From: an uncultured Bacteroidota bacterium
GTDB lineage: Bacteria; Bacteroidota; Bacteroidia; 2-12-FULL-35-15
Assembly (NCBI GenBank): GCA_903847205.1
Contig: CAINDA010000064.1
Span: 248,001 to 312,000 of the forward strand
Direction: 5' to 3'
DNA length: 64,000 bases
Positions 9,335-59,408 of the stretch are shown here, in pieces (the first letter of the stretch is position 1; each line of letters starts with the position of its first letter). The position numbers and the translations under genes are program-made. The notes beneath the pieces are model-generated. The model made no database searches and had not been told where the DNA came from. It saw nothing but the letters and a program-made list of their open reading frames with translations.

Positions 9335-11530
9335 TTATATTTTTATCCTTGCGTCAACTACAAATGCTTTGTCCTCAAAGGCCATGATGGGGTTTAAATC
9401 CATTTCTTGTATTTCAGGGAAGTCTGTGACAAGCTGAGACAAACGCTGAATAATTTCAATTACACTTTGTTTGTGAATTCCTTTTTCACCGCGTACGCCG
9501 TCTAATAATTTTGATGCTTTGATTGATGATAACATTTCTTCCGCCTCTACTTCTGTTACAGGCGCAATTTTGAAAACAACATCTTTTAAAACTTCCACAT
9601 AAATCCCTCCGATACCAAACATGATAAGCGGTTCAAGGTCACGCTGTGCGCTGATGCCTGCTATCAGCTCTCTGCCGCCGGGAAGAAATTTCTGCACAAA
9701 AAATTTAAGATCTTCTGCATCAAATTTTTTCTTCATGTTCTCAACAACAGAGCGTACTTCATCAGAATTTTTCAGATTCACAGCAACACCGCCTAAGTCG
9801 CTTTTATGAACCAATGATGCTGCATCAGCTTTTATCACAACCGGGTATCCTATTTCGTTAGCCGCTTTAATTGTTTTTTCAACATCATCCGCAAGGCGCC
9901 AATCAGCAACGGGGATGCCGTATGCAGCAAGCAATGAATAAACTTTGTCGGAGGTAAGAAAATGAGGATTCAGGATTTGGGATTCAGGATTTGGGATTTG
10001 CGTTGAGTTTTTTTTAATTCCTAAATCCTTATTCCTAAATCCTGAATTTAATATTTCAGCTGCTTTTGATTTATTTATATCCGCAAAAATTTTTGCTTCG
10101 CCGATATTTCTTGAACGAACTTTGTGATATTTATACAATGCGCCAAGCGCCTTAGCTGCTGTTGTTGGGAAACTGTAGCAGGGAACGCCTCCGTCTTTTA
10201 AAATTTTTGCAGTTACTTTAAAACGGTCAATCGACATGTTGGTCATGAAATTGCAGACGATTGGTTTGCGTTTCATTTTGTTTACCTCCACAATATTTCT
10301 TGCAACATCATCGGTATCGGTAAAAGGGGCTGAAACAAAATTGATGAAGATGGAATCAATAGTATCTTCTTCCATCAAAACATCCAGTGCACTGCGGAAA
10401 TGCTTTCCACCGCCGGTTGCAACCACATCAATAGGGTTTCCGATTGTTGCTTCTGGAAGCTGTGTTTCTTTTAAAATAGTTACGGCTCTTTCTGAAAGCG
10501 GAGGCAGCACTAAGCCGGCACTCACTAATTCGTCAGTTGCTATAACCGCAGGCCCGCCTGTGTTTGTGATGATGCCGACACGGTTTCCTTTCGGAATAGG
10601 CTGTGTTGCGAATGCCATTGCAGCCTGGCACATTTCTTCTTCGTTATTAAAAGCGAGTACTCCTGTTTTTTCGAAAATTAATTCTGTTGCAATATCCACT
10701 CCGGCAAGAGAGCCTGTGTGAGAAGCGGCTGCTTTTGCACCTGCTTCTGTACGGCCTGATTTCATAGCAAGAATGGGCTTTTTCCTTGAAACCGATTTAG
10801 CAGTTTCCATAAACTCTCTTGGATTTTTAAATCCTTCGGTATATAAAATAATGGCTTTTGTTCCTTCGTCTTCTCCGTAATATTTGAGCACATCCGAAAT
10901 AGAAATATCGCAGGCATTGCCGTTGGAAGCATACATGCGCATTCCGATTTCGAGATCAAATAAACTCTGCATGATGAACGCCCCCACTCCTCCGCTTAAT
11001 GCTGCGATAGAAATGGCGCCCGGTTCAGGAAATGTAAAAGTGAAATCGCAGTATGCTTTGAATGCAGGATCGGTATTTATTATACCCTGGCAGTTTGGTC
11101 CGAAGATGCGTACACCATACTCTTTTGCTTTTGCAAGAAATGCTTTTTGCAGCGCGATACCTTCCTCTCCCATTTCACTAAACCCCGCAGAATTAATGAT
11201 AACAGACTTAATTCCCTTTTTGCCGCAGTCTTCAATTATCTGCGGAACAAATTTGTTGGGAATAATTACGTGGGCCAAATCAATATTATCAGGAACATCA
11301 AAAATTGAAGTATATGCCTTAATCCCTCTAATTTCTGGCTCTTTCGGGTTAATCGGATAAATTTTTCCAGTGTAGCCGTAATGAACCAGATTTTTAATAA
11401 TAACATTTCCGATTGAAAGTTCTTTGGAAGATGCGCCGATTATGGCAATAGATTTGGGTTTAAAAAGTGAATCCAATTCATGCACTGCATTTATGGACTC
11501 CTTTTTTATTTTTGTTTCTGCTGTATTCAT
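9335..11530 (-). CDS. ADP-forming acyl-CoA synthetase, fused alpha-beta
   Basis: 731 residues with the NDP-forming acyl-CoA synthetase layout: CoA-binding domain (about 20-150, SIAIIGASS near 27-35), ligase-CoA domains (150-470) with the phosphorylated His271 in SHTGSLAG (270-277), and a C-terminal ATP-grasp domain (about 525-731, YPVVIKAD, GGVAVNL, FGIGGIYVEVL). The enzyme interconverts acyl-CoA, ADP and phosphate with acid, ATP and CoA. In this operon it could make ATP from acetyl-CoA, or activate an aromatic or dicarboxylic acid; direction and substrate cannot be read from sequence. The linker before the ATP-grasp domain (495-524) is encoded by an inverted repeat that looks inserted. Confidence 0.85.
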   Translation of the reverse strand: MNTAETKIKKESINAVHELDSLFKPKSIAIIGASSKELSIGNVIIKNLVHYGYTGKIYPINPKEPEIRGIKAYTSIFDVPDNIDLAHVIIPNKFVPQIIEDCGKKGIKSVIINSAGFSEMGEEGIALQKAFLAKAKEYGVRIFGPNCQGIINTDPAFKAYCDFTFTFPEPGAISIAALSGGVGAFIMQSLFDLEIGMRMYASNGNACDISISDVLKYYGEDEGTKAIILYTEGFKNPREFMETAKSVSRKKPILAMKSGRTEAGAKAAASHTGSLAGVDIATELIFEKTGVLAFNNEEEMCQAAMAFATQPIPKGNRVGIITNTGGPAVIATDELVSAGLVLPPLSERAVTILKETQLPEATIGNPIDVVATGGGKHFRSALDVLMEEDTIDSIFINFVSAPFTDTDDVARNIVEVNKMKRKPIVCNFMTNMSIDRFKVTAKILKDGGVPCYSFPTTAAKALGALYKYHKVRSRNIGEAKIFADINKSKAAEILNSGFRNKDLGIKKNSTQIPNPESQILNPHFLTSDKVYSLLAAYGIPVADWRLADDVEKTIKAANEIGYPVVIKADAASLVHKSDLGGVAVNLKNSDEVRSVVENMKKKFDAEDLKFFVQKFLPGGRELIAGISAQRDLEPLIMFGIGGIYVEVLKDVVFKIAPVTEVEAEEMLSSIKASKLLDGVRGEKGIHKQSVIEIIQRLSQLVTDFPEIQEMDLNPIMAFEDKAFVVDARIKI
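9967..10049. repeat. imperfect inverted repeat inserted in frame in the synthetase gene
   Basis: The left arm 9967-9999 carries two copies of ATTCAGGATTTGGG; the right arm 10016-10049 is its imperfect reverse complement, again with two copies of the CCTAAATCCT-type core. The arms are about 33 nt with a loop of about 16 nt. It encodes residues about 495-524, a Asn/Pro-rich linker between the ligase-CoA and ATP-grasp domains. The reading frame is kept. The sequence type (repeats of AGGATTTRGGRATT) looks like an intergenic repeat element rather than ordinary coding sequence. Confidence 0.7.
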
Positions 11531-16638: not shown

Positions 16639-18792
16639 ATGAAAAAAAATCTACTATCCGGCTTTCTTTTTTTAATTACCAGCTTCTATTGTAAAGCTCA
16701 ACAGCCCCCTTTGAGCCCCATGCCTGATCTTACCTACAATAGCAATACGTCCGAGAGGTGTAAGCTGATGGTAATTAAAGATTCAATAATTTATGCGCGG
16801 CGTGCCGGCGGACTGGAAGAGTTGAATATTAACAACCATGAAACAAAATACCATTGGGCTGGTTATTATGTTTTAGAAAGTATTGTAGCTGACACGGGCA
16901 ATACTTACGTTTATATGAGTGGTAATTCCAGATATATAGGAAGGTATAATCACAATACCAATAAGTATGAAAACATTTCCAACGGCAATCTTCAAAACAA
17001 ACAATTGGGTGATATTGATGTGGCGTCAAATGGAAAAGTTTGGGTTACAACAACAAATACTTTCAAGAATGTTGCAATTTATGATGGGAGCAATTGGATA
17101 TTATACCCTAATCCGGCAAATATTTATTGGGGGTTTGGAAAAATAAAAGTGATAAATGACTCTTCTGCATATTTACTCTATGCTTCACAAATTTACAAAT
17201 TCCATAATGGAATTTATGATTCCGTTTACACGCTTCCTTCAAGCGGTGCTTATTTCTCTGACTGGGATGTGGATGCCGGGGGCGGGTTATGGATTGCCGC
17301 CACGAATAAATTAATTCACCTTCAAAACAGCAATGCTTTTATTTATGATGCCTCAAATACTCCTATAGGAACAGATCAATTTCTAAATGTAAAGGTCGGA
17401 GCTAATGGTCATGTGTGGACTGCAGGGAATAAAAACAAGCTGCTGGAATTTGATGGAACCGCATGGCAGGCAAGAGCGTTGCCTGGCTTTGACAATTCAA
17501 TTGAAAATTTTTTCCTTGATAAATTGAGCAACCCTAAGGTGATGTCCACTACCTCTAACGGCATTCATCACTTATTATTATACAACGGCAGCAATTGGTC
17601 AACCATCCCATTTCCTTTCATGCCATTCAAACAGGCAAAAGAAATGGGTGCAGCATCCAATACATATAGCGGGGCTTTACTTTTTGCGACAAACGAAGGT
17701 CTTTTTACTGTTACTCAAAATTTTTCTTTAAGCGGTTTTTCTGATACCACAACTGTTCCTCATGCCGATGACGTTACCTGCTTTACTGATAATGACCCCA
17801 ATTATACTCCAGCTTTCGGTTCTCATGAGGGAGTTTGTTCCTTACCCGGGTTCGACAATTCACAACTTCCTAGTAAAAACGTAAACCACATTTGCTTTTA
17901 CAATGGGACTTATTACATTGGCACCGACAGCGGCCTTGTAACATACAACGGCATTTTTTATAACAATATCAATACTTCCAATTCACCGCTTCCATCAAAT
18001 AAAATCACTTATGTTACTGTAAATAATAGTTATTGCGGAAACTACAATGTTCTCTATGTCGGTACCGATAATGGATTGGCCGTTTATCAGAATGCACAAT
18101 GGACTGTTTATAGCACTGGCAATATTCAAGTGAATAATTTTTATGTTACTGGAGCGGCCTCTTTCTGCGGTGATTCGGCTGTTTACATTTCAACTTTAGG
18201 TAATGGGCTTATTCAAGCATATCCTCATGGAAGTTATAATTTGTTTAATACTTCAAATGGAAAACTGCTTGATGACACATTACATTATATTAAGGATGTT
18301 CAGCTTGGTGAATGCGGCCAATTTTTAATACTTGGCACACAACATCATGGCTTAGCCAGTACCGGCTTTTATAATGCGCCTTTATCTTTTAATTACGATA
18401 CACTGGATTGGAATAGCGGACAGCCGATACATAGCAGTATGGCAATTGAAATGTTTAGCAACTCCGGCATTGGCGGGTATATCGTTTCCACTAATGCTGG
18501 ATATTATTCAATATCAATCTGCGGCGGGGTTCCTGAAAGTAAAGAAACGAAGCATCAATTGAATTGGCTTCAGCAAAATAATCAATTAATAGTTTCAGCT
18601 CCAGTAAAATTTAATGGTAAAGGAACAATTATACTCAGCAATATGCTTGGGCAAACAGTAATTGAAAGTGATTGTGATACTAGAAATGGCGCAACAAAGC
18701 TGGACATTAACAATTTGAGTTCGGGAATTTATATGATAAGATTAAATATCGGAGATGAAACCGGATTTTCTAAAGTCATTCTTTCAAGATAG
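16639..18792 (+). CDS. secreted beta-propeller protein with T9SS sorting domain
   Basis: 717 residues with a signal peptide (MKKNLLSGFLFLITSFYCKA). The body is made of repeated strands such as NGKVWVTTTNTFKNVAIYDG, GGLWIAATNKLIHL and NGHVWTAGNKNKLLEFDG, which resemble two-component-regulator propeller repeats, but there are no membrane, kinase or DNA-binding parts. The C-terminus (about 650-717, IILSNMLGQTV ... LSSGIYMIRLNIGDETGFSKVILSR) is a T9SS sorting domain. It is therefore an exported propeller, probably binding ligand or surface. It is isolated, with the pseudogene on one side and the 20-bp array on the other. Confidence 0.8.
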   Translation: MKKNLLSGFLFLITSFYCKAQQPPLSPMPDLTYNSNTSERCKLMVIKDSIIYARRAGGLEELNINNHETKYHWAGYYVLESIVADTGNTYVYMSGNSRYIGRYNHNTNKYENISNGNLQNKQLGDIDVASNGKVWVTTTNTFKNVAIYDGSNWILYPNPANIYWGFGKIKVINDSSAYLLYASQIYKFHNGIYDSVYTLPSSGAYFSDWDVDAGGGLWIAATNKLIHLQNSNAFIYDASNTPIGTDQFLNVKVGANGHVWTAGNKNKLLEFDGTAWQARALPGFDNSIENFFLDKLSNPKVMSTTSNGIHHLLLYNGSNWSTIPFPFMPFKQAKEMGAASNTYSGALLFATNEGLFTVTQNFSLSGFSDTTTVPHADDVTCFTDNDPNYTPAFGSHEGVCSLPGFDNSQLPSKNVNHICFYNGTYYIGTDSGLVTYNGIFYNNINTSNSPLPSNKITYVTVNNSYCGNYNVLYVGTDNGLAVYQNAQWTVYSTGNIQVNNFYVTGAASFCGDSAVYISTLGNGLIQAYPHGSYNLFNTSNGKLLDDTLHYIKDVQLGECGQFLILGTQHHGLASTGFYNAPLSFNYDTLDWNSGQPIHSSMAIEMFSNSGIGGYIVSTNAGYYSISICGGVPESKETKHQLNWLQQNNQLIVSAPVKFNGKGTIILSNMLGQTVIESDCDTRNGATKLDINNLSSGIYMIRLNIGDETGFSKVILSR

Positions 18793-18926
18793 TGAGAATA
18801 ACCTTTATCATGTTTAGATTTTATTAATAAAATAAATCTATTCATCAACCAGAAAGCGCAATATTGCATAACTACTTTGCAAGTCTGTTTAGCCCTAAAC
18901 AAGATTGATTAATACCAAATCAATCT

Positions 18927-19206
18927 CGATTTCCAGAAAACAAACTGAATTTCTATAAAACAAATTGAATTTCCAGTAATCAAACAGGATTTCTGGAAAA
19001 CAATCTGATTTTCCGGAAAACAATCTGATTTTCTGGAAATCAAATAGAACTTCCAGAAAACAATCTGAATTTCAAGAAAACGAACTGGATTTATGGAAAT
19101 CAATCTGATTTTCTGGAAATACAAGCCAACTTCAAGAAACCAATCTGAATTTCTGGAAAACAATCTGGATTTCCAGAAATCAATCTGAATTTCCCAAAAA
19201 TAATCT
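18927..19206. repeat. tandem array, 14 units of 20 bp
   Basis: Fourteen contiguous 20-nt units without spacers; consensus close to GAATTTCTGGAAAACAATCT. Units differ at several positions, and the core appears both as TTTCTGGAAA and as its reverse complement TTTCCAGAAA, so transcripts could pair with themselves. The period is not a multiple of three, so the open frame across it on the minus strand (18909-19163) is a by-product. It lies upstream of the FN3-type gene at 19399. A 21-bp array occupies the same position before the related gene at 48508. Confidence 0.9.
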
Positions 19207-19398
19207 GAAACAGTAATTTTATTGAAACATTCGGCTGTTCTTCTGCGTTCAAGTATTCAAGTATTAAAATTCCATTCTAATGAAGATATATTTACTCAGG
19301 TGTTTTTCCTAAAACGGACATAAACAAACTAAGCACAAAAACTTGCTTCTATAAAGCAAAGGATAAACACCGTGTGCGGAGTAAATATATTAAATCCA

Positions 19399-19998
19399 AT
19401 GATAGAAGTAAAAATTTCGCTTGCGTTTAAAAAGTTAAGCGCAGCACTTTCGGCTGTTTTCGGGCAGAGTATTTTAACTGCAATTACAGGAAACAGTAAT
19501 TTTCTTAATCCTTTCCCGGTAATTACTGATTTGCAGACAGCGGTGACTGATCTCAAAAACGCTATTGCTTTGTTTCATCCCGGAGATAAAGCAAGCGGCG
19601 AAGCTGTAAAAGCCGCTAAACGAAAGCTGAACCCTGTATTAAAAGCCCTGGCCGGCTATGTTGAGTACATAAGCGATACTAAAGTTACAATAGCGCTTTC
19701 AAGCGGTTTCAGTATAGTTCCTGCAAGACAAGGCAGAGCAAAAGGTTTCACAGCAGTACAGGGACTGCAGTCGGGAAGTGTTGAAGTAAGAACGCTTTCA
19801 GGAGCAAACTCTTATGTATGGCAGTATTACGCAGAACCTTTGAGTAATGCCGATTGGCATCAGGCTGCAGTTACCACGCGTGCAGCTTATACTATTAATG
19901 GTTTAAATCCGGGTACAAAATATTGGTTCCGGGTTGCTGCTATTACCAAAAACGGCCAGCAGCCTTGGGGTAATCCGGTGATGGTGCATGTGGTGTAA
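19399..19998 (+). CDS. small FN3-type protein of unknown function
   Basis: 199 residues from the ATG at 19399; a GTG at 19372 is in frame but adds residues unlike the rest. There is no signal peptide. Residues 1-100 look helical (TDLQTAVTDLKNAIALF...KAAKRKLNPVLKALAGYVEYIS). Then comes a VTIALSSGFSIVP segment and a fibronectin type III-like domain (SYVWQYYAEPL..., YTINGLNPGTKYWFRVAAI). The protein at 48508 has the same order of parts, including [10 protein letters not shown] and [10 protein letters not shown] recall such small FN3 proteins as frequent in Bacteroidota, but know of no assigned function. It follows the 20-bp array by 192 nt. Confidence 0.75.
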   Translation: MIEVKISLAFKKLSAALSAVFGQSILTAITGNSNFLNPFPVITDLQTAVTDLKNAIALFHPGDKASGEAVKAAKRKLNPVLKALAGYVEYISDTKVTIALSSGFSIVPARQGRAKGFTAVQGLQSGSVEVRTLSGANSYVWQYYAEPLSNADWHQAAVTTRAAYTINGLNPGTKYWFRVAAITKNGQQPWGNPVMVHVV

Positions 19999-20013
19999 TG
20001 AGTTCAGGAGCTA

Positions 20014-20140
20014 TTTCGACAAGCTCAATATTATTAGGCGGATGGTCAGTCTGAGCTTGTCGAAGACTGTTGGCAGGCTTTAAAAGCAATGCATTTGAGC
20101 AAGAAGCCATCGCACATATTTCGACAGGCTCAATATGACC
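20014..20140. repeat. inverted TTTCGACAAGCTCA-type repeats
   Basis: TTTCGACAAGCTCA (20014-20027) faces its complement TGAGCTTGTCGAA (20052-20064), and a third, slightly changed copy TTTCGACAGGCTCA begins at 20119. They lie in the gap between the convergent FN3-type gene and the acyltransferase gene. Such pairs are frequent intergenic repeats in Bacteroidota and may act as a bidirectional terminator. Confidence 0.7.
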
Positions 20141-20182
20141 AGCGCGAGAAATGAAGAAAGCTGTTTTGTATGTTAAAGAAAT

Positions 20183-21894: not shown

Positions 21895-22020
21895 AGAAAA
21901 GTTTGAAAGTTTGAAAGTTTAAAGTTCTGGGTATTAAAAAAAAGTTGAAAGTTTAAAGTTTGAAAGTTCAAAGTTCTGTGTACTAAAAAAACTTTAAACT
22001 TTCAAACTTTAAACTTTCAA
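21895..22020. repeat. GAAAGTTT-repeat hairpin after bcrA
   Basis: The gap after bcrA contains repeated GTTTGAAAGTTTAAAG-type motifs (21899-21925 and 21951-21975) and then their reverse complement (21990-22020), able to form a long A/T-rich hairpin. It may terminate the bcrCBA transcript or limit read-through into the acyltransferase genes. Fragments of the same motif occur at 23540-23580 upstream of bcrA. Confidence 0.6.
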
Positions 22021-22026
22021 ACTTAA

Positions 22027-23448: not shown

Positions 23449-23571
23449 TGAAATATGATTAAAGTGATTAAAAAAAGATTACACAGATTTTGCGTTTATT
23501 TCTGTGTCATTCATTATCATTCAATTATGCCTGTCATTAACTTTTAACTTAAAACTTTTAACTTTCAAACT

Positions 23572-24873
23572 TTAAACTATAATCCCCTCTTGTTTCAAAA
23601 TAATTTTTCGCTGTCCGAGCATCTGGAAGTACGATTCCAAGCGATTTTTTATGTTTGCATAAGAGAAATAACGCGGGTCAACTAAATCGCTTTCGATAAA
23701 ACCAACCGGAACTCCGGTGCGCTGTTCAATCTCGCGCATAATCATAAGCTGGCCTGCTGAAAAGGAGTTGCAGCTTTTTATCGAATTAATAAGGAAGCCG
23801 TCTGCTTTATAGTCTTTCACATATTTCTCAAGCATATCAACACGCTGCGGAAGATTCATATTGGTGTAACAGCTCATGCAGTATTTTGATAAACTTTCCA
23901 AAGGCGCCGTTGGATCATGTCTGAATCCAAAGTCATAAACACCGCCTACTTTTGTATAAGAAGACGCAACAATTACTGCTCCCATATCATAAAATATTTT
24001 CCAGAACTCGCGGAAATTTGTCCAATTAGGAGGGCCTTCCATTACCAATCGGAATTTTTGTTCTTTGATTTCTCCTTCAGGTGTTACAGGGCCCAAACCA
24101 AGTCTCATACGCTCCTGAACTTCATTCCACAACTCAGAATAATATTCAACGGCTTCCGGAGTACCTCTGAATGCGGTGAAAATAGGGCCTATATAATACA
24201 CGCCCGCAAAATATGCATCAATAGGCGAAGGAACATTTTTTGCGCTCTCCAAAATATTCACCAGCAAATCCTCTGCTTTCGCGGAGTTTTCCATCATACC
24301 CGACAAGCGTGACATATCAAACTTTTTTCCTGAAACCATTTCCATTTTTGGAATCACATCTTCCTTCAGCTGTTTCACCATATAATCAATTTGATCCTGG
24401 GTGATTTTTCCATCCTCCTGATAAGGCGTGTGAAGCATTGCTACAGGTACTCCCGGATACATGCGTTCCAGGTTTTCAAACCATTTTAAAAAAGTAAAAC
24501 AGCCGGTGTAGCTCAGTAACAGCAAATCCGGACTGGGAAGTTTTTCGCCGGTGGGCCCTATGTTGCCATTCAGCATCATACCGATATCACATTTCACATA
24601 CGTACATACATCCTCCGAATACCCAATTTTTTCGGCATCTTTGATAAAGGAGCCGGATTTTTTTCTCATACCCGATTGAAGTGCATTGATCTCCGGATAC
24701 ACCGGAAGCATATCAAACGAAAGAATTAATTCAGTGAGATTACCGGGAACAAAAGTGTAAACTACTTTTTTCCCAAGCTCTTTCGCTTTGCTTAAATCAT
24801 GAAATTGTTTTGCAAGCATGTCCTTTTGAAGAACCATGCTTTTTTCTTTTATTGCCTCAGTAGGTTGTGCCAT
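23572..24873 (-). CDS. bcrB: benzoyl-CoA reductase subunit B
   Basis: 433 residues, equal in size to Thauera BcrB (435). Characteristic segments are YTFVPGNLTELILSFDMLPV (39-58), INALQSGMRKKSG (62-74), EDVCTYVKCDIGMM (87-100) and LSYTGCFTFLKW (120-131). Cys90, Cys125 and Cys368 match the cluster-ligand positions of the family. With BcrC it forms the module that binds benzoyl-CoA and reduces the ring to cyclohexa-1,5-diene-1-carbonyl-CoA. It lies between bcrC (144 nt, containing a heptamer repeat) and bcrA in the order C-B-A, as in Thauera. Confidence 0.92.
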   Translation of the reverse strand: MAQPTEAIKEKSMVLQKDMLAKQFHDLSKAKELGKKVVYTFVPGNLTELILSFDMLPVYPEINALQSGMRKKSGSFIKDAEKIGYSEDVCTYVKCDIGMMLNGNIGPTGEKLPSPDLLLLSYTGCFTFLKWFENLERMYPGVPVAMLHTPYQEDGKITQDQIDYMVKQLKEDVIPKMEMVSGKKFDMSRLSGMMENSAKAEDLLVNILESAKNVPSPIDAYFAGVYYIGPIFTAFRGTPEAVEYYSELWNEVQERMRLGLGPVTPEGEIKEQKFRLVMEGPPNWTNFREFWKIFYDMGAVIVASSYTKVGGVYDFGFRHDPTAPLESLSKYCMSCYTNMNLPQRVDMLEKYVKDYKADGFLINSIKSCNSFSAGQLMIMREIEQRTGVPVGFIESDLVDPRYFSYANIKNRLESYFQMLGQRKIILKQEGIIV

Positions 24874-24905: not shown

Positions 24906-24954
24906 TTTGTTATTTGTTATTTGTTATTTGTTATTTGTTGTTTGTTATTTGTTG
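24906..24954. repeat. heptanucleotide repeat, 7 x TTTGTTA
   Basis: Seven contiguous 7-nt units (five perfect TTTGTTA, two TTTGTTG) in the bcrC-bcrB intercistronic gap, 33-81 nt before the bcrB ATG. The copy number may vary by slippage and alter spacing or RNA structure ahead of bcrB. Confidence 0.85.
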
Positions 24955-48021: not shown

Positions 48022-48441
48022 ATCAATACAAGTTCAGACAAAACCAATATCACTTTACTTCAGACTTGTATTAGTTTGGACAAAACCAATATCACTCCGC
48101 GCCAAACTTGTATCAGTTTATACAAAACCAATACAAGTCCATACAAAACCAGTATCAATCTGCGCCCGACTTGTACTGGTTTCGTTTGGACTTGTATCAG
48201 TCTGCCGCAAACATGTATTAAAAAGCATCAAAATCTGCCAATTTTTTTCAAAACCTGTATTGGTTTGCACCAAACTTGTATTGATTTGGCTCCGACTTGT
48301 ATTGGTTTGCCGCAGACTTGTATTAAAAAGCATCGAAACCTGCCAGATTTTTTCAAAACCAGTATTGGTTTGTTCACAGCTTGTATTGGTTTTGTGCGGA
48401 CTTGTATTGGTTTGCACCGGACTTGTATTTTCCGACTCCAG
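48022..48441. repeat. tandem array, about 20 units of 21 bp
   Basis: Contiguous 21-nt units with starts at 48022+21n, most of form ACTTGTATTGGTTTGNNCCGG; a weaker extension reaches back to about 47960. Some units instead carry the reverse complement (AAACCAATACAAGT) in the same phase. A 105-nt (5-unit) higher-order duplication is seen, with the odd TGTATTAAAAAGCATC unit at 48214 and again at 48319. Because 21 is a multiple of three, several frames are open on both strands, but none is a credible protein. The array ends 67 nt before the FN3-related gene at 48508. Confidence 0.9.
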
Positions 48442-48507: not shown

Positions 48508-49200
48508 ATGATAAACCTTATTCACTGCGCTTTAACGTACCATTCACATGGCGATGATGCCCTCACCACTTTTTCAATCGGCGTTAAAAAACTGATGTTC
48601 GAAAACGCTGCTTTATTTACAGCCCGCCCGATAAGCGATGCCGATTTAGGAACTTTAATAGAAAATCACAGCAATACTTATGTGGCCTATAAAATGGGGG
48701 GCGTAAATCAGCAGCCTGCCTATAATACGGCTCATTTAGCGCTTATAACAGGGCTTGATTCTATTGCCGATTTTATTAACGGTTTGGTAAAAAACAATCA
48801 AACTCAGGCAAATGTTATTATTGTTTCGGGCGGTTTTGTGCCTACCAAAGCAGGCAGCACATCCGTACCTGTGCCTGCTATTCCCACTAACAATACTCTT
48901 GACAGGGGAGATATTCAGGAGCATGGAGTAATTAATACAACTACGCCTGCCGTGCCCGGAGCTACTTTTTATGGCTGCGTTGCATCTGAAAATGCTCCTT
49001 TAGATCCCAACAGTTTTATCAATGGGCAGCTAATTATTAATGCGGCTAACCCAAATAAAGTGCGCATGGATGTAAATAAAAGCCGTAAAAAAACATTTAC
49101 TGCACTTACTTCGGGGGTAAATTATTATTTTCAATTTTATGCCGGAAATGCTAATGGAATAAGTGCTTTAAGCACTGCTATAAATATTTCGGCGGTTTAA
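48508..49200 (+). CDS. small FN3-related protein of unknown function
   Basis: 230 residues, no signal peptide. It has the same plan as the protein at 19399: a helical first part ([16 protein letters not shown]...[21 protein letters not shown]), a [11 protein letters not shown] strand segment, then an FN3-like or related beta domain ending in [21 protein letters not shown]. Between these is an insertion of about 45 residues ([18 protein letters not shown]...). It follows the 21-bp array and is followed by a terminator, so it forms a single-gene transcript. No function is known to me; the shared layout with the other copy suggests a repeat-array/protein module. Confidence 0.7.
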
Positions 49201-49304: not shown

Positions 49305-52300
49305 ATGAAAGCAAAACTATTACGTTTCAAAAAACTTCCAAAATTCCTGTTTGTCGGAACATTACTCACTTTTGCAAGCAGCGTTTATGCCCAAACAGAT
49401 ACAACATGGCACCCAGGTGTTGCGGTAGGCAGCATCTACACCAATAATAGTGTTCAAATTGGGAATGGACTGGCAGTAGCAGGCAATTTGAATACCGATA
49501 CGTTAAAGGCGAAAAGAGTTGTTGCCGATACTATGAAAATAACAAGGATAATGCCTTTGGACGGTGATAGCATTATTTCTTTTGGGAGACATACCGCAAA
49601 TTTAAATATTAATCAAAATAATTTATGGTGGAATACAACTTCAGGACCTGTGGGTTTCTCAATTGGTAATGGTAATTCTACTACTCCCTGTAAAGCACTC
49701 GGATTAAATTCAATTGCATTTGGATTTGGAGCAAACACTACTGTTAATGGACAATATTCAACAGCATTGGGTTATGCATCAACAGCTTCAGGAGATCGTT
49801 CAATGGCATTGGGAAGAGGTACAATTGCCAGTGGAGCTAATTCAACAGCACTGGGAGATCTAGCATCCTCATCTGGTCAGCTTTCAATGGCATTTGGACT
49901 AAGTGCTGCCGCTAGTGGAAGTTATTCAATGGCATTGGGTGCTCATGCATCCGCTGCTAATAATAGTGCAGCAGCATTGGGATACGGGGCTGTGTCATCA
50001 GGTATTGGTTCAATGGCATTGGGATATAGTTCAACTGCTTCTTCGCAATATTCAAGTGCATTCGGATATAATGTAACTGCTAATGGAACCAACTCGGTGG
50101 CTTTGGGAAATAACACGGTTGCTGCGGGGGATAATTCAATTGCTTTGGGAAATAGTACAACTACCAATGGAACAAATTCAATGGCACTCGGAAACAGCCT
50201 TACTACAAGCGCAGCAAGTGCTTTTGTTATTGGTTCGGGCATAACTTCCAGTACAGCCAATTCATTAACAGTAGGCTTTGGCAGTCCAACTTTATTTGTA
50301 CAGAGCTCCCCTCTTAGAGTTGGTATTGCTACAATAACCCCGCAGCAAACCCTTGATGTAAACGGAACAGCAAACGTACGAACGGTTGCACAAAACAATG
50401 CGCTCACTCAAGTACTTGTACGCGACCCAAGCAATTTAGGCTTGATACAATATAGGGATGCCGCCACACTAACTGGTTTAACTGGTGCCACAGGTGCAGT
50501 TGGCGCAACAGGCAGCGGAAGCACAGGCGCAACGGGAAGTATCGGTGCAACAGGGATAGTCGGGGCGACAGGCGCAATTGGTGCTACAGGCAGCGGAAGC
50601 ACAGGCGCAACGGGAAGTATCGGTGCAACAGGTATAGTAGGGGCTACAGGCGCAATTGGTGCCACTGGTAGCGGAAGCACAGGCGCAACGGGAAGTATAG
50701 GAGCAACTGGTGCTGATTTAAATACTCATTGGACAATAACAGGGAATGCAAGTACAAATCCACCTACCAATTTTTTAGGGACAACCGATGCAAAAGATTT
50801 AGTCTTCAAAACAAATGCTGCAGAATGGATGAGAATTTTATCGACCGGCAATGTAGGTATTGGAACAGCAGCTCCTAATGCTCAACTTGAAGTAATGGCT
50901 GGTTCAGCTGGCAGAATTTTATTTACCGACAATACCGCTTCTGCTCAAAACGTAGATTCACCAACTCTTACTTTTACAGGAATGGCTACAGCTCCAAATT
51001 CCGGTTGGAATATTCAAGCCCGAGTAACTGGTGCATATTCGCAGCGAGATTTAATTTTTAGCGGGCATTATGGGTCAGATTATTTTACTCAATTGGAAAG
51101 AATGCGTATAAATTATTTTGGGGAAGTAGGCATTGGTACAGCAAGCCCAAGTGCTTTTCTGCATATTTACCCAACGGTTATCTTAACTCCCGATGCCTGT
51201 AGTTTTAAAAGCAGTATTAATTTTAATGGCACAACAATGAACAACTGGTATGGATGCTATGTTGTCACCCCTTCAGGAAGCGGCGCAATTACACATAAAT
51301 ACGCATTAGTAACAGAAGCAAATGCCGGCAATGTAGGTATTGGGACAACAGCCCCCAGTCAAAAATTAGATGTGAATGGAAATGTGAATGTAACAGGAAA
51401 TTTCTTTGCTACTGGTACTGTTGATAATACTTTGCACTCATTTGGTCCGTCAGACAGTAAATTAAAGCAAAACGTTAATTATACATATAATGGTATGGAT
51501 ATTTTAAGACAATTAAAACCAATAACCTTTAATTTTAAAACTACTCAATACCCTCGATTAAACCTCCCTGAAGGATTACAATATGGGGTAATTGCACAAG
51601 AATTTGGGCAGGTGCTGCCTAATCTTTTTAAAAGTGATTCTTTACCACCTGTCTTAGATTCTGTTGGTAATGTTGTTTATCCTGGCATAGAATTTAAACT
51701 TGTAAGTTATGAGGGATTAGTTCCTATTTTATTAAAAGGAATAAAAGAACTGGATTCTATTTCAACTAAAAATAGTCAGGAGCAACAGCAAAAAATTGAT
51801 AGTTTAATCACCAATGCAAGCAAACAGGATTCTATCAATACATCATTGCAAAATCAGTTAAATCAAATGGTAACAAAAGATACTTTGTTACAAAACCAGT
51901 TGAACCAATTGATGACAATAATAACTAATTGTTGTAACCGTTCTCAATCAATGATGGATATCAGTAATAATGGTAATACTAAATCCATGAGTATTGGTAC
52001 TATTCCACAAGGTGAAACAACGCAAATAGATGTAAAACTCAATGATATTCAAAGTGTCATTTTAGAACAGAATGTCCCAAATCCTTTTCAAGAAGAAACT
52101 ACTATTAATTATACTTTGCCTGATAATACAGCGAAAGCACAAATGCTGTTTTACAATTCACAAGGAAAACTAATCCAATCAGTAGATTTGGTTCAAAAAG
52201 GAAAAGGACAGTTAAATGTTTTTGCAAGTGATTTGTCCAATGGCATTTACACTTATACACTTGTAGTGGACGGAAAAATAATTGATAGTAAGAAAATGAT

Positions 52301-59298: not shown

Positions 59299-59333
59299 GG
59301 CAATGGACAATGGGCAATGGGCAATGGGCAATG
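59299..59333. repeat. heptanucleotide repeat, 5 x GGCAATG
   Basis: Five units (one GACAATG) directly after uppS, followed by related GAGCAAT copies. A simple repeat that may vary in length. Confidence 0.8.
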
Positions 59334-59408
59334 GAGCAATGAGCAATTTGGCAATATAGAACTAACAACATTCAACTAATAACAAACAGGTCATAATTCG
59401 CAGTATAC

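Follow-up and report, generated by a model that had tools for sequence, protein, structure and literature searches.

Genes of a small FN3 protein family in a group of Bacteroidota are accompanied by tandem arrays whose 20-21-bp period is kept while the unit sequence changes from locus to locus. Association with the genes, constant period, self-complementarity, unit sharing in trans and co-occurrence of arrays and family by genome are established here. We read array and FN3 gene as a cognate protein-DNA pair that acts in cis and at distant loci, a reading to which we assign a probability of about 0.4. The array and gene observed in the window, the whole 64,000-nucleotide stretch that was analysed, are one case of a genome-wide pattern.

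Two array-FN3 loci in the window

The features of both loci are collected in Table 1. Tandem Repeats Finder resolved the first array as period 20 with 14.6 copies at 72% match, and also as period 40 with 6.6 copies. It ends 189 nt before the start of the 199-aa gene; with an alternative GTG start at 19372 the product would be 208 aa long. On visual inspection the 199-aa protein has no evident signal peptide. Residues 161-194 of P0001 match Pfam fn3 (PF00041; E 1.2e-7, 32.2 bits against a cut-off of 25), and its predicted model, of modest quality (mean pLDDT 55.6), has helices at residues 15-31, 41-57 and 64-92 and strands from residue 128. In this modest-pLDDT model, residues 102-199 form a beta-sandwich (VIA Z 10.4, rmsd 2.2 over 83 residues, 6tpv_A), and the structural matches over these residues are FN3 domains from receptors and muscle proteins. 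For the N-terminal helices, searched as part of the whole P0001 model, the fold comparison listed no specific match. Repeat finding, gene coordinates, Pfam and the model thus confirm the 20-bp array ahead of a helical plus FN3-like protein of the initial annotation.

A 21-bp array had also been described before a protein of the same plan at 48508. Array and protein are both real, but the array extends beyond a single 21-bp run. P0002 alone matches Pfam fn3 at E 0.034 with 14.8 bits, under the curated cut-off of 25; the family profile A2, built without P0002, recovered it with 47 bits (E 1.7e-16, the two window proteins being the search set). Unlike most of the family, it is not basic (pI 6.6). 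Six window neighbours of the two loci encode T9SS-sorted proteins, acyltransferases, a radical SAM protein and a PTPS (QueD-like) protein.

The window holds other repeats as well. A 78-bp repeat at 50490-50707 encodes a collagen-like stretch in a 1002-aa T9SS-sorted protein with YadA head and S74 peptidase. Repeats of 7, 14 or 15 bp, mostly intergenic, lie at 9965-10043, 21898-22024, 23539-23582, 24906-24953 and 59299-59355; they are of another kind than the 21-bp arrays and recall the heptamer repeats of PMC4679880.

Table 1. Positions of the arrays, leader elements and FN3-family genes in the window.
Feature	Position	Strand	Method
Spacer-free array, about 14 units of 20 bp, near-palindromic core TTTCYRGAAA	18917..19209	+	Tandem Repeats Finder
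Leader ORF MKIYLLRCFS, similar in four paralogues (L001-L004)	19280..19312	+	
Conserved leader, nested inverted repeats 19286-19297/19379-19390 and 19299-19305/19365-19371	19286..19390	+	Fold, alignment
FN3-family protein P0001, 199 aa, helical N-terminus and C-terminal FN3, predicted pI 9.8	19399..19998	+	
Second array, periods 21/42/105	48031..48429	+	Tandem Repeats Finder
Second FN3-family protein P0002, 230 aa	48508..49200	+	

A leader lies between the first array and its gene, with a whole-leader fold z of only -1.26. Among the loci compared, the leader with MKIYLLRCFS or a variant and the pairing segments is restricted to the L001-L004 clade, of which L004 has the shared leader but no array. 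Other clades seemingly have short leader motifs of their own, judged by eye. A similar leader ORF (MIINL...CSG) precedes the start by about 128 nt in L015, L035 and L036, a second clade. At L152 (-393 to -287 relative to the start) and L157 (-323 to -217), a 107-nt stretch between array and gene is 95% identical, although the genes are only 76% identical. Rfam gave no match at the gathering threshold for 12 loci. Since the leader is common to L001-L004, array-less L004 included, and leader motifs occur elsewhere, gene control may act at the level of translation too, apart from the array.

Extent and properties of the protein family

A profile from 18 paralogues of the window genome found 27 small FN3 family loci there, 22 intact and 5 broken or split; the same search also returned large multi-FN3 proteins. 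At E 1e-3, with matches partly to generic FN3, 39 of 59 genomes were positive (the window genome, 35 of its genus and others of the class). In an even draw across the phylum with eight candidates scored per genome, 8 of 395 genomes, one of them the window genome, matched at E 1e-12; in two of the eight the match covered the FN3 half only. The family set, taken from the best-scoring matches listed, comprises 131 unique ORFs, 107 of them full-length. These 107 proteins have a median pI of 9.33, and 77 lie above 8.5; a crude pI control was also basic (median 8.34, 48% above 8.5). Pfam fn3 matched 15 of the 17 members of profile A2 at E <= 0.1, and only FN3-type families matched well in Pfam, the N-terminal helices being barely covered by the fold comparison.

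At L063, L066, L067 and L108, two family genes stand in tandem behind one array. Carriage by phages or plasmids was rejected, as two family proteins had no match in phage and plasmid collections and two scans of viral contigs gave none.

Arrays of constant period accompany the family genes

We scored arrays whose period is near a multiple of 20.9, those with score or span below 60 being excluded. Among 106 full-length family genes with at least 300 nt upstream (22 genomes; one gene with a shorter flank excluded), 70 had an array of this 20-21-bp class within 700 nt upstream, 8 had one downstream only and 28 had neither; in the 40 control blocks, 20 of 515 other genes had an upstream array. This supports the earlier suggestion of the array as a functional part of the locus. 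Whether homologues lack upstream arrays had been named as its test: 70 of the 106 have one and 8 more only a downstream one, but 28 show no clear array within 700 nt.

The placement differs between genomes and clades. In the window genome 15 of 22 genes have the array upstream, 5 downstream and 2 neither; the counts are 2 of 8 upstream and 2 downstream in G050, 0 of 2 in G053 and 0 of 1 in G006. The L045, L046 and L048 clade carries it downstream in all three members. Four of six members from beyond the window's genus and close draw (L089-L093, L097) have an upstream array, L092 and L093 showing none of the 20-21-bp class within 700 nt.

The 28 array-less genes include four second genes of tandem pairs and two with an array 700-1214 nt upstream. 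A faint periodicity persists where no array was detected: with the four second genes of tandem pairs and genes with less than 600 nt excluded, the best lag between 14 and 35 was 21 for 13 of 24 such genes, against 49 of 518 controls.

The control blocks, 800 kb in all, contained 29 arrays of the 20-21-bp class, 3 of them beside two family genes, against 14 of all other periods. None of 31 arrays lay inside a gene when ORFs largely made of array were discounted, and 18 of 48 non-family gaps of at least 400 nt held one. Among gaps of at least 300 nt, arrays occupied 3 of 8 convergent gaps versus 15 of 69 others; arrays are not depleted from convergent gaps and are therefore not simply promoters, which weakens a promoter-only model. 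Contig ends fall inside arrays at L017:1-447, L325:1-162 and L054:2149-2395, so assemblies break there and arrays are probably undercounted.

Unit sequence changes while period and symmetry are kept

Over all family genes the best lag was 21 in 71 of 103 and 20 in 6 of 103. A period of 20-21 bp, equal to two turns of B-DNA, is kept whatever the unit sequence, including periods that are not multiples of three. The units themselves are unrelated between most loci, with period and placement conserved, and the repeated pairing of unrelated repeats with related proteins pointed out in the initial annotation is thereby borne out across the family. A single common binding motif was rejected, since in most array pairs the similarity does not exceed that of the reversed control.

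Unit likeness and protein identity were compared pair by pair, for few pairs. Same-genome pairs with 82% (L041/L042), 74% and 70% protein identity have unrelated arrays, and pairs at 89% (one genome) and 80% (two genomes) have common units. Where the arrays are unrelated, the pairs can still be aligned over the gene and parts of the flanks. Because these genes have already diverged (76-82% DNA identity), neutral drift may suffice for the change of units, and we do not claim accelerated change. L041 and L042, 82% identical, have unrelated units, so any specificity must change with few residues.

Both window arrays gave strong predicted RNA folding, with z of -5.2 and -5.9 against dinucleotide shuffles and sense-strand z of -2.4 and -3.9 against permuted unit columns. 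Across 65 arrays, self-complementarity against column-permuted arrays had a mean z of -1.38 (sense strand) and -1.31 (antisense strand); the top 5% was reached by 29 arrays on the sense and by 24 on the antisense strand, and the sense strand was the more stable in 33. Sixteen non-family arrays (L199 and L202 excluded) were similarly self-complementary. Dyad symmetry of the unit had a mean z of 0.64 (p 9e-5, n=64). Equal self-complementarity on both strands agrees with a dyad site in DNA and does not point to RNA in particular. Of the initial proposal of near-palindromic cores and extensive RNA folding, self-complementarity beyond chance therefore stands, but RNA is not favoured over DNA symmetry, given the equal strands and the 8 of 106 genes whose array lies downstream only.

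The same data bear on a module at the RNA level, in which the array would be transcribed with the gene and the FN3 protein would bind the repeat RNA or be held by it, on the pattern of type III toxin-antitoxin systems. The arrays are mostly upstream, with a median distance of about 180 nt from array end to start codon. This would suit such a module, as would the folding of the window arrays, and the A-over-T sense-strand bias is positive in 48 of 72 upstream arrays (a count with no background control). We consider this module unlikely, in view of the equal strands, the downstream-only arrays and the same-unit arrays that exist without an FN3 gene. A simple scan of 18780-20180, limited to the window locus, also found no sense-strand terminator-like site around the array, and the repeats measure 20-21 nt versus 34-36 nt for the ToxIN examples of PMC5086642.

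Some arrays share units with distant arrays

We searched 20 mid-array pieces of the window genome against the whole genome; the other five of the 25 assembled came from four broken loci and a duplicate. Ten of the 20 FN3-linked arrays share a unit with an array elsewhere, and ten have no partner array. Eight partner arrays (of L001, L018, L032, L035, L042, L044, L046 and L054) have no family gene according to the profile search, and the partner of L031 lies at a broken family gene. The tenth belongs to the second window array (L027), whose unit weakly resembles (50 bits) the DNA upstream of a sister gene that contains an in-frame stop (G000:C64:56925). The first window array has one clear relative, an unlinked array at G000:C35:66067-66300 with a common unit (75% identity over 234 bp). 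L045 also matched at C65:141164 (E 8e-5), a place where no array was found, and this match is left out of the ten. Reversed queries gave 0 hits of 40 bits in 784 kb containing these arrays.

In the second genome, G027, eight pieces were searched and low-complexity L159 was excluded; 6 of the 7 counted pieces had same-unit matches elsewhere (no reversed control), L130 at 58 bits only, and L066 and L108 match each other and C41.

A gene start follows the array at a distance of 90-350 nt in 10 of the 11 partner loci fetched. Genes near the window-genome partner arrays are varied (DUF5677, NOV_C, MarR, a FadL-type porin, a T9SS-sorted protein), one such array sits between convergent genes, and no common function was seen among the genes at the fetched window-genome loci. 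At L182:7488-7772 an array stands before an AAA_21 ATPase and RloB pair resembling a defence system.

Stand-alone arrays follow the family by genome

In 1.86 Mb sampled in blocks, arrays more than 1.2 kb from family genes were taken as stand-alone. The 14 family-positive genomes had 27 in 1.17 Mb and the 16 family-negative genomes 2 in 0.69 Mb (binomial p 3.5e-4, relatedness not corrected), where family-negative means a best match no better than about E 1e-7, generic FN3 hits allowed. Both arrays of the negative genomes are doubtful (one 37/180 compound, one near a contig end), yet they were counted. Seven of the 14 positive genomes had no stand-alone array in the sample. Genomes with few listed copies (G006, G008, G016, G030, G040, G053) had 1 in 313 kb. 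Because G034 and G044, with more copies, had 0 in 40 kb each, a dose relation between family copies and stand-alone arrays is only suggested. On this point the initial annotation has to be corrected: arrays also occur apart from FN3 genes, nearly always in genomes with the family, and some of these share units with FN3-linked ones.

Stand-alone arrays as relics of lost FN3 genes were rejected: no FN3 remnant lay within 1.5 kb by tblastn or profile, and the hits in 4 of 31 array flanks were all known intact family members. In G027 a 440-bp array with flanks occurs in two copies at 94% identity (L191:2475-2914, L129:194-633), one about 840 nt before an FN3 gene and the other without one, possibly a moving unit.

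This duplication would fit a mobile or ectopically copied minisatellite, whose arrays spread by themselves with FN3 genes as hitch-hikers or tolerant neighbours; so would the MITE with a 23-nt tandem repeat known in Porphyromonas (PMC4596501). Yet the element has two copies only and no terminal inverted repeats by eye, most array pairs have no common unit, and the constant period and the 78 of 106 association would go unexplained, so that we hold this origin to be improbable.

A further alternative is that two-turn repeats are curved or specially wound DNA for a common nucleoid protein, with FN3 genes merely its most frequent clients. It would explain a period kept while the sequence is free, and arrays that adjoin unrelated genes and occupy convergent gaps, but it predicts neither unit sharing between distant arrays nor the near-absence of arrays from family-negative genomes, and we judge it quite improbable. 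That the arrays encode seven-residue repeat proteins is hardly credible: although 21 bp is seven codons and 66 upstream arrays have 65 sense open frames against 45.4 (sd 4.7) in column-permuted arrays, an excess left unexplained, antisense frames also number 65 (60.4 expected), 8 downstream arrays have 4 against 5.8 expected, codon positions show no sense-strand bias (0.152, 0.144, 0.144), a period of 20 or 41 does not preserve the reading frame, and in the window array no sense frame is open.

A proposed model of cognate protein-DNA pairs

We favour cognate pairs of array and FN3 protein because of the association, the lag of 21, the constant period, self-complementarity, unit sharing in trans, co-occurrence by genome, the basic pI and the position of partner arrays before gene starts. 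From these we infer binding, cooperativity, regulation or bridging, and insulation. Each unit would be a partly dyad-symmetric putative binding site, and the two-turn spacing would place bound proteins along the same side of the helix. The FN3 protein, small and mostly basic, might bind its own array cooperatively and so autoregulate its gene, and might also bind one to three unlinked same-unit arrays, regulating or bridging those places. Divergence of units between paralogues would keep the pairs insulated.

Several facts count against cognate pairs. FN3 is not a usual DNA-binding fold, and the FN3 domains matched by structure belong to receptors and muscle proteins. Moreover, half of the 20 searched arrays have no partner, close paralogues have unrelated units, the pI control is basic and P0002 is not, convergent gaps are not depleted, and 7 of 14 positive genomes lack stand-alone arrays.

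Extended to the genome, some 20-25 FN3 paralogues could each read their own array of 21-bp period and link to distant same-unit loci, giving a unit-coded regulation or chromosome bridging in which repeat length, not sequence, is conserved; such a network is possible though doubtful. As the protein family and candidate target loci are already listed, direct testing by binding and occupancy assays is possible.

Comparison with known systems

Plasmid centromeres and iterons (ParR/parC, iteron/Rep) consist of tandem sites in helical phase beside the gene of a small binding protein. The FN3 loci resemble them in such sites next to a small-protein gene, binding being putative here. They differ in lying on chromosomal contigs, in tens of paralogues per genome, in the FN3 fold and in partner arrays in trans, and no motor or replication gene (ParM/ParA or Rep) is found among the six window neighbours of the two window copies.

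Type III toxin-antitoxin systems (ToxIN, AbiQ; PMC5086642) likewise have a tandem array upstream of a small-protein gene, with repeat length kept and sequence varied. By comparison, FN3 arrays have 20-21-bp instead of 34-36-nt units, often more copies and sometimes a downstream position; the protein is FN3 plus helices with no sequence sign of a relative of the ToxN endoribonuclease toxin, same-unit arrays recur elsewhere without the gene, and no counterpart of the Rho-independent terminator that separates repeats and gene in type III loci was found at the window locus.

BrickBuilt, a MITE of Porphyromonas gingivalis, is described in PMC4596501 with a 23-nt tandem repeat, leader, tail, terminal inverted repeats and 19 copies. 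It shares with our arrays being a Bacteroidota repeat element with a short tandem repeat; the units of FN3 arrays, in contrast, vary by locus and are linked to a protein family. TAACTGA heptamers are intergenic direct repeats, suggested as regulatory sites, in genomes that include five Bacteroidetes, and lie mostly near start codons in the main genome studied (PMC4679880). They have one fixed 7-bp sequence, and no linked paralogue family is named in the passages that describe them, unlike the varied FN3-linked units.

A full-text literature search, with most subscription journals outside its coverage, found no description of such arrays. The constant period, the free unit sequence and the return of units at distant genes suggest that this group of Bacteroidota has a so far undescribed network of proteins and DNA arrays. 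If true, bacteria would have a class of DNA element that is set by its helical period and joined to a protein family. A fold met chiefly in extracellular and muscle proteins would then have a DNA-related function inside the cell, and a single genome would offer a natural set of many protein-DNA pairs.
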